NCBI RefSeq assembly: GCF_000003815.2
Contig: NC_049994.1
Span: forward strand, 15,793,711-15,857,710
Length of the DNA: 64,000 bases
Origin: Branchiostoma floridae
Taxonomy: Eukaryota; Chordata; Leptocardii; Amphioxiformes; Branchiostomatidae
Direction of reading: 5' to 3'
A program made the translations under genes and the position numbers. Shown piece after piece: positions 28,101 to 55,043 of the stretch; position 1 is the first letter of the stretch; every line of letters starts with the position of its first letter. The notes under the pieces are model-generated. The model did not search any database, was not told the DNA's origin, and was given only the letters and a program-made list of their open reading frames with translations.

Positions 28101-31100
28101 TGAAACCGAGCCAAACTGCACTTTCGGTTACCCAAGTATCTTATAACACCCATTTCCATCTCATCAAGTTCCGTAGACGCATCCTCACTAGATATCATTT
28201 AACAACATTTACAGTTAGATGAGCAAAGGTCTGATGTGCGTGCCTGCGAAGTTGGTGGGTTACGCCGAATGGCTTTTATATAGGCTATAAAGACAGATAC
28301 AGCTACAAAACTAAAGGGGGAGTACGGGGGCATGGAAAACTGAGACTAGCTGTCGCAGCCCGACGCACCTTTCTCAAGCGCTCTCTCCTCTTCTTTCTGC
28401 CTCTCCGTGTCGAAGTCCGGCTGCTCCGGAGGCGGTTCGAGCTCCCCGATGGCGTGCTGAGCAGGGTGGTTGGAGCGGATGCTGTAGGTCCGGCTCAGCT
28501 GTCGGGCAGGCTCCTCTCTCTTTTTTATTTATTCATCAACAAAGTAAAATGCAGGACAGAGAGTTGATGTACTCTAGCAATATGCTAATGTTAACATCAC
28601 CTCTTAAAAAAGAAATAAAATAACAATATCGAAAACTAGAGTTCGGCGACCTCATACCTCCATGAAAATTTAGAGCTTTCGTAAATTTCATGCAATTGAC
28701 TAACACATTAACATAATTTATGCATGGTGTTGTTCATCATTGACTAACGTACACATGTCAGTTATAAAATTCCCATTATTAATCATAAAGTGGTTTTGCA
28801 ATTTTTACATAAATTATGCAAATAAGTTCCTCATTACCATATTTGGTATCTGCTTATATTCCACCTATTATAATTAACATGTGTTACATGTATTGAGGTC
28901 CAGTTATTGAAAACAATGGAACTATACAATTTCCTGATTAATTATGCAAATTAAGTCCTCACCTGCATAACATGTATATCATTATGAACTTCTTTGCCTA
29001 AGCTACCCGCATGCCTAAAATGCAGGCAATCTGTCGTTCCTGTCTGTAGTTATCCTCTTTGGAGTGTCTTGACAAAAACACCCCTGCAGTTCCACAATTA
29101 AATGTTAGGGGACTGAAACTTGCCCCACTTTGTCATGACACCAAAAGCTATCTACCACCAAAATGTCAAGACCATAGCATGTCTCAAACTAGAGATACAT
29201 TGAAAAAACTGCTATGATAGAATATTCTCATTAATTATGCAAATGTACTTTTGTTTTGCATAATTAGTATCTTACCTTGTAAAACATTGTCTAAGGTACC
29301 TACATACCAAAAATGATGAAAATCCGTTGTTCCCTTCTTGAGTTATCGTCTTCAGAAGTTTTTGACAAAAATGCCTCTGCTTTCCCAAAACTAGACGCTA
29401 GGGGGCCCAAACTTATGTCACTTATTCCTGAGCACAAGAGCTATCTAACACCCCAAAATCGTGACCATAGCTTGCTCAGAACACGAGATAGCAAACCCGG
29501 AAGTTGCGGTGCAGTACCAAGGTAAGCCGCTAGGGGGCCCAAAATCTAATCATTTCCAGCTTTCATCACACCCTACCAACACACCAAGTATGAAACCAAT
29601 CCACCAAGCCGTTCTTGAGTTATCTTGTTTACACACACATACACAGACAGACACACAGACAAACACGGGGTAAAATATAACCTCCATGACATTTCATGGA
29701 GGTAATAAACAATTCACAGCTATCTACAAATGTTTATTGATGGAATGGTTGCTAGGTGGCTGCAAAGCGTTTGGTATGTACAGTATAAGTATGGGTTAAC
29801 TGTAAAATACTGCTGTTTGTATGATGTGAACCCCTTAAAAGTAGATAGATGCGGGCTGATTCAGGAAGACTCTTGAAGTTAAGATTATTACCTAACTAAT
29901 CTCCAAGCAGATGTTGCGGTGGTTTAAGACAGCAACATAAGCTGGGGAAGGAAGTTTTGTTCCACCACATTAACTCCTCTACCGGCTAAACTCCTTCCCC
30001 AGCTTATGATACTATCTTATGTCATGCAAGATCTGCTTGGAGATCATTACCTACTAGGGTCTGAAGATTGCCGGAAAGATTAGTTCTATGTTGTTGTTAG
30101 TTCTAGGTAGGGCAGTATAACAAAAAATGTACCTCTTTCTTGTGGAAGCGGCGGCGGACGAGGCGAGGGGTGGCGTGGATAGAGAACTTCCGTCCGCCTC
30201 CTGCTCCTGCTGCGGGTGCTGCGGTACCGCGAGAGCGCCTGGCGCCGCCCAGGGACCTGACGGAGAGGCGGGCTCTGTCCGCGCGGTTCAGGAGTGTGCG
30301 GCGGAGGAACAGGGCAGGGTCGATAGGGGAGGGCGGCGAGCTGATAAAGCAAGCATGTGGATCCAGAATCAAATAATCACCAAGAGAACAAGTGACATGG
30401 GGAACAATGCCACCCCGCCCTATTACATGATATACAAGATAAGCTATGATGACAATTCCGAACCGGGACTGGGTCGGGCTAGAAATGGAAGTGTCTATCA
30501 ATAAAGATTATTATTATGAAAAGAAATACAGAAAGTGTGCTCATGACAAATTGCCTGTTAGTTTTGTTTTGTTTCATTGTTTCTTCTATCATACTTCTCG
30601 TTCCGGCAAACTGCTTGGCAAGGGGCAGGTTTGCAAATGTGACTCTAGCATTACTGATTTTGCCATTATGCAATTGTGCTTACGTCACGTGGAAGTCTTC
30701 GTCGTCACTGCTGTCGGTGCTTCCTTCATCATCCAGGTAGTTCTGGATCATCTCGGCGTACTCCGCGTTCATCGTCATCAGCCGGCGGTGGGGGCCCTTC
30801 CCGGCGATCCGCCCGTCTTTCAGGAGCAACACCTCGTCACAGTCACTCAGGTACTGATGGACAAGGTGGGGATAGTGATTTTAATAATCAGGAGCAACAC
30901 CTCGTCAGAGTTACTCAGGTACTTGTGGACAAAATGGGAATAGTGATGGTGATAGTGATTGTTTATCATCGCAGTCACTAAGGTACTTGTGGACAGGATG
31001 GGAATAGTGATTTTAATAATCATGAGCAGCACCTCGTCACAGTCACTCAGGTACTGAGGGCAAAATGGGATTATAGTTATAGTGATTATTTATCATCGCA

Positions 31101-55043: not shown

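Follow-up and report, generated by a model that had tools for sequence, protein, structure and literature searches.

Tandem duplications over exon-intron boundaries in three neighbouring amphioxus genes are mirages, probably the product of frequent genome-wide short tandem duplication

Tandem copies of an exon boundary, known in amphioxus as mirages, were reportedly described originally in Adh by Canestro and others in 2002. Rogers in 1989 and Gao and Lynch in 2009 are said to have treated the gain of introns through tandemly duplicated AG/GT proto-splice sites or through internal gene duplication. Two later papers place mirages in Adh3, in the globin genes BflGb6 and BflGb9, in troponin C and in PGBD5 (PMC3087553, PMC3902484), the PGBD5 case being added and the troponin C case cited by the second of them (PMC3902484). 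The reported units measure 10–160 bp, and the BflGb6 copies are 81–100% alike (PMC3087553, PMC3902484). Many, not all, of the copies are described there as carrying AG/GT signals, and the gain of introns from mirages is proposed (PMC3087553). A limited search of one library found no genome-wide count of mirages in the literature.

We analyzed a stretch of 64,000 nucleotides from Branchiostoma floridae (contig NC_049994.1, positions 15,793,711 to 15,857,710; hereafter the window), in which an original prediction had placed four independent duplications of exon edges, in an ABCC5-like gene, a PhyH-family gene and a BHMT gene. The junction-spanning tandem duplications in these genes are mirages of the known amphioxus kind, an earlier description that the prediction does not mention. 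Like the described cases, they are minisatellite-like tandem duplications over a boundary, at either end of an exon, with AG/GT on many copies; their repeat units cross the exon-intron boundary at offsets of about 40–270 bp, and the copies bear GT or AG signals, some of the decoys having been found by a pattern that contains the signal. New relative to published mirages are the genes (ABCC5-like, PhyH, BHMT, aldehyde dehydrogenase (ALDH) and what we take to be a DMXL-like gene), the comparison against a sampled genomic background, and, in BHMT, a likeness limited to the exon together with a decayed copy at the matching edge of a paralogue. The cases resemble intron gain by proto-splice-site duplication in that splice signals are carried along in a tandem duplication; in those systems a new intron arises, whereas the present units cross a junction that already exists and leave intron number unchanged if the outermost sites are used.

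Blind scans recovered all of the predicted duplications, close to where they had been placed. The four places resolve into five events; two more had been missed, a decayed one at acceptor 20022 and a faint one at donor 24270. "Independent" is a loose description, because BHMT alone holds three of the five, within about 1.7 kb. The features are as follows.

20013..20265, minus strand: decayed acceptor mirage of an ABCC5 NBD2 exon (19858–20022), with copies at 20130 and 20240 (offsets 108 and 218).
21662..22343, minus strand: intronic 56-bp minisatellite of about 12 copies, starting 4–9 nt past the ABCC5 exon end at 22352.
23935..23990, minus strand: probable decayed copy of the ABCC5 donor 24270, near 23947, with a weak score of 12.
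30820..31138, minus strand: acceptor mirage of the ABCC5-like exon beginning YLSDCDEV (real exon 30689–30853), with 64/68-bp units and a 132-bp higher-order period.
45651..45876, minus strand: donor mirage of the PhyH exon 45840–46032, with a 119-bp unit and one decoy donor at 45720.
51350..51690, plus strand: donor mirage of BHMT exon 4 (51227–51418), with a 129-bp unit containing 40-bp sub-repeats.
52379..52628, plus strand: acceptor mirage of BHMT exon 6 (52531–52719), with one decoy exon edge from 52383.
52667..52998, plus strand: donor mirage of BHMT exon 6, with decoy donors at 52815 and 52988 (offsets 95 and 268).

Exons were first located with human protein queries. In the ABCC5-like gene, one exon of which (between 36648 and 35252) was not found, the real acceptor at 30853 is preceded upstream by four decoy acceptors at 30921, 30985, 31053 and 31112. 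The degraded copy of donor 24270 is separated from the real donor by a palindromic MITE-like insertion (window 24060–24260), which lies between GGTTAGAC direct repeats. The minisatellite at 21662–22343 was rejected as a junction copy and counted as intronic; its unit shares with the donor only a short CCGGTA likeness. The two PhyH copies (45668–45757 and 45787–45876) are 94% identical over 90 bp, and decoy donor 45720 and the real donor have equal splice scores (4.4 and 4.4).

In BHMT, where exon numbering assumes a single upstream exon 1 that was not located, exon 4 is followed by decoy donors at 51459, 51548, 51588 and 51628, and its copies at 51368–51473 and 51497–51602 are 97% identical. 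The region 52383–52988, predicted as one duplication, holds two separate events on a single exon: an acceptor duplication, in which 52379–52480 recurs 148 bp away at 52527–52628 (102 bp, 99% identity), and a set of donor copies that begin at 52667, 52762 and 52935. Joining exons at the outermost sites gives intact protein segments in all three genes, and the gene identities are based on these joined exons: the ABCC5 NBD2 exons match 8wi5 (E = 7.7e-122), the PhyH exons encode an intact PhyH domain (PF05721, E = 2.5e-38), and the BHMT exons match PF02574 (E = 1.3e-40), with PDB entry 1umy as best match (E = 4e-121).

We consider it probable that these structures reflect frequent, genome-wide short tandem duplication that is tolerated in introns and over junctions, with no need for a process aimed at exon edges. 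Short tandem duplications would arise often by slippage or unequal exchange, and those wholly within exons would, on our assumption, mostly be purged by selection; counting against it, 15 of 193 exon-interior 45-mers had a copy within 450 bp. Copies in introns or over junctions would persist because a splice choice that gives an unchanged mRNA remains, namely the first of the donors or the last of the acceptors in an array. The surplus copies would then decay or, occasionally, be homogenized by gene conversion. Some copies are still 99% identical and others badly decayed, the pattern that a steady process would leave, which counts in favor of this explanation.

To score likeness, 45 nt at each exon edge were compared with the intron flanking that edge; mismatched exon/intron pairs served as the control and had a 99th percentile of 10.5. 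Six of 82 edges have clear copies (scores 17.5–45) and a seventh is weak (12.0, reached by 0.26% of mismatched pairs), the 82 edges being those of the genes annotated between 19 and 55 kb and including the outer ends 19283 and 55044, which are not proven junctions. Two of the scoring edges, the ABCC5 NBD2 acceptor 20022 and donor 24270, lie outside the predicted set. The prediction that the duplications exceed chance thus divides: copy likeness is far above it, but a preference for junctions is not established.

The rival that this preference would favor is a mutational process that seeks out junctions, through breaks at base-composition steps, R-loops or AG/GT motifs, or else local hot spots in some genes. 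We regard it as unlikely. In its favor, a blind scan of the three genes found six of eight events at junctions where 2.31 were expected (P = 0.0075, uncorrected, in a window chosen for this feature), or four of six when BHMT is counted once (P = 0.042). Three events fall in BHMT and three in one sampled stretch, L023, and the arrays at 21662–22343 and at 5042–5720 of another sampled stretch, L025, start near a donor or putative donor. Against random intronic positions, the comparison that the prediction had named for a genome-wide test, the outcome in the window depends on one array. A copy accompanies 6 of 82 edges; among intronic 45-mers, those that lie outside the junction arrays give 59 of 1119 (P = 0.44), with a low-complexity filter applied to the intronic 45-mers and not to the curated edges, and with search lengths of 450 bp for edges and up to 700 bp in the same intron for controls. 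Against all intronic 45-mers the figures are 6/82 and 93/1119 (P = 1.0). The single 56-bp minisatellite supplies 41 of the 59 intronic matches; once it is left out, the intronic count drops to 18 of 1119 and the edges come out enriched (P = 0.004). When predicted edges are used over the whole window, 3 of 12 clusters lie at an edge, with 1.8 expected by unit length (P = 0.28) or 3.8 by span.

Against this rival, two unselected samples show no significant excess at edges. The first (C2) comprised 20 stretches of 10 kb with 189,165 known bases, and the second 13 of 14 ALDH loci (L019 was omitted), some of which overlap (L008 with L015; L010, L012 and L013). Exon edges in the samples were predicted by a codon score that recovered 24 of its 37 training exons. 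C2 contains 26 tandem clusters, and 4 of them touch a predicted coding edge; random placement would give 2.7 if scaled by unit length (P = 0.31) and 5.4 if scaled by span (P = 0.83). At the ALDH loci the count is 3 of 8, against 1.8 by unit length (P = 0.27) or 3.3 by span. Pooled, 7 edge clusters stand against 4.5 expected (P = 0.17), two of the seven being doubtful; with the five certain cases only, P = 0.47, under an expectation made for predicted edges. Counted by edges, a copy accompanies 12 of 149 predicted coding edges in C2, ten of which are decoy-copy edges of one array; with these ten removed the figure is 2 of 139, whereas some 5.6% of the 45-mers there have a copy. The corresponding figures are 3 of 76 against 2.6% at the ALDH loci and, with decoy edges included, 8 of 107 against 4.6% in the window.

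The certain cases have the same anatomy as those in the window. All three in C2 lie in L023, in the gene presumed to be DMXL-like: a first array (2735–3640) repeats the exon end and donor six times, the real one plus five copies about 144 bp apart; a second adds two further donor copies; and a third repeats 11 nt of exon. As read from the sequence, the frame at 2735–3640 is open into the first extra copy. At the ALDH loci, L015 carries three decayed acceptor copies and L016 one donor copy. Tandem duplications thus repeatedly leave functional-looking spare donors or acceptors, as had been predicted, both in the window and in L023, L015 and L016. The doubtful clusters are L025 5042–5720, an automatic match at a predicted edge whose donor could not be placed, and L011 2123–2212, an automatic match at an ALDH locus that has the look of a simple repeat beyond the end of the gene. 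L017 and L013 hold duplications that appear intronic. In the L017 case (1130–1337) an ALDH intron carries, upstream of an exon, a 127-bp unit duplicated perfectly in tandem (81 bp aligned, 100%) and apparently non-coding.

Taken with the window counts, the results are mixed. A genome-wide enrichment at junctions is not established, and neither is the local process that the prediction had suggested, nor one aimed at exon edges. A local excess in the window is possible, as is a modest general one: each unselected sample exceeds what unit length predicts, so an excess of up to about twofold is possible, and because all three certain C2 cases fall in one stretch some genes may be hot. Whether junctions are preferred or share a general duplication rate bears on the origin of new introns and exons; the present sample leans to the general rate, without settling the matter. 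With mirages on several percent of the edges examined, amphioxus offers a natural test of splice choice among near-identical neighbors, and its mirages can mislead gene prediction.

Selection could instead keep the spare splice sites, either for regulated alternative splicing or as a source of new exons and introns, in line with the proposal of intron gain noted above. The listed window decoys do carry GT or AG, but this is no independent test, because several were found with patterns containing the dinucleotide. The frame of BHMT exon 4 is open through the 129-bp copy, to 51628 (ORF 51209–51628), so use of donor 51548 could add 43 residues to the protein. However, 11 of 14 decoys (the weak 24270 copy being omitted) have an offset that is not a multiple of three, so that splicing probably uses the outermost site; translation from the acceptor decoy of BHMT exon 6 meets a stop after 13 residues, and the third exon-6 copy has an in-frame stop. 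A decoy in a BHMT paralogue, described below, lacks an AG at the aligned place. We therefore think such selection very improbable and retain general, tolerated duplication as the preferred reading.

The BHMT exon-6 acceptor shows an unusual detail. Its two copies agree at 97 of 98 positions in the exon part and at 25 of 40 in the adjoining intron part, which is not expected from a single recent tandem duplication of a unit containing both. A BHMT paralogue on another contig, C330, is 73–81% identical to the window over the matched exons and has a decayed copy of the same acceptor edge, 81/98 identical to its own exon, with a stop by alignment; on the exon, this copy ends at most about 15 nt from where the window decoy ends. 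No copies were seen in the paralogue at the exon-4 and exon-6 donors. The window decoy matches the paralogue's decoy at 70 of 98 positions and the paralogue's exon at 76 of 98; decoys thus do not group with decoys across loci. One tentative reading, which we would rate somewhat below an even chance, is that decoy edges may be in lasting exchange with their exon: the exon-6 duplication would predate the split of the paralogues and would have been overwritten recently by exon-limited gene conversion. If so, decoys would be long-lived partners able to rewrite, or be rewritten by, coding sequence. Because the decoys do not group across loci, parallel duplication or a recent exon-only insertion may account for the pattern instead.

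The paralogue also bears on whether the arrays are assembly artefacts, produced when haplotypes or copies of a repeat are mistakenly placed in tandem. PMC3087553 records one globin mirage that the older draft had mis-assembled. Against such an origin for the window cases, the copies have decayed to varied degrees, one of the edges duplicated here also has a copy in the diverged paralogue on a different contig, and the PGBD5 tandem copies are described in PMC3902484 as confirmed by re-examined Sanger and new Illumina data. We find this explanation scarcely credible.

The prediction had also suggested a possible tie to MITEs, a link that proved weak. Among the four junction regions searched for inverted repeats of at least 20 nt, a MITE-like palindrome occurs in one, in BHMT intron 5 (51994–52163); the PhyH and ABCC5 NBD2 regions have no such repeats, and the ABCC5 region at 30.8 kb has one weak pair (73%).

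Other features of the window were noted in passing. A MITE-like palindrome in the last BHMT intron (54600–54770) has inverted ends around GTTGAGTCGCGTAAGATATAGTAG and an internal 34-bp duplication. A 39-bp minisatellite at 292–620 lies in an apparent intron of a gene that reads as multicopper-oxidase-like, near a donor at about 668. The first 60 or so bases (1–64) resemble C-rich mitochondrial coding sequence, perhaps a nuclear mitochondrial insert and perhaps a coincidence. An 87-bp tandem repeat at 56982–57158 lies within a long, Thr-rich open frame (minus strand, 56719–57360).
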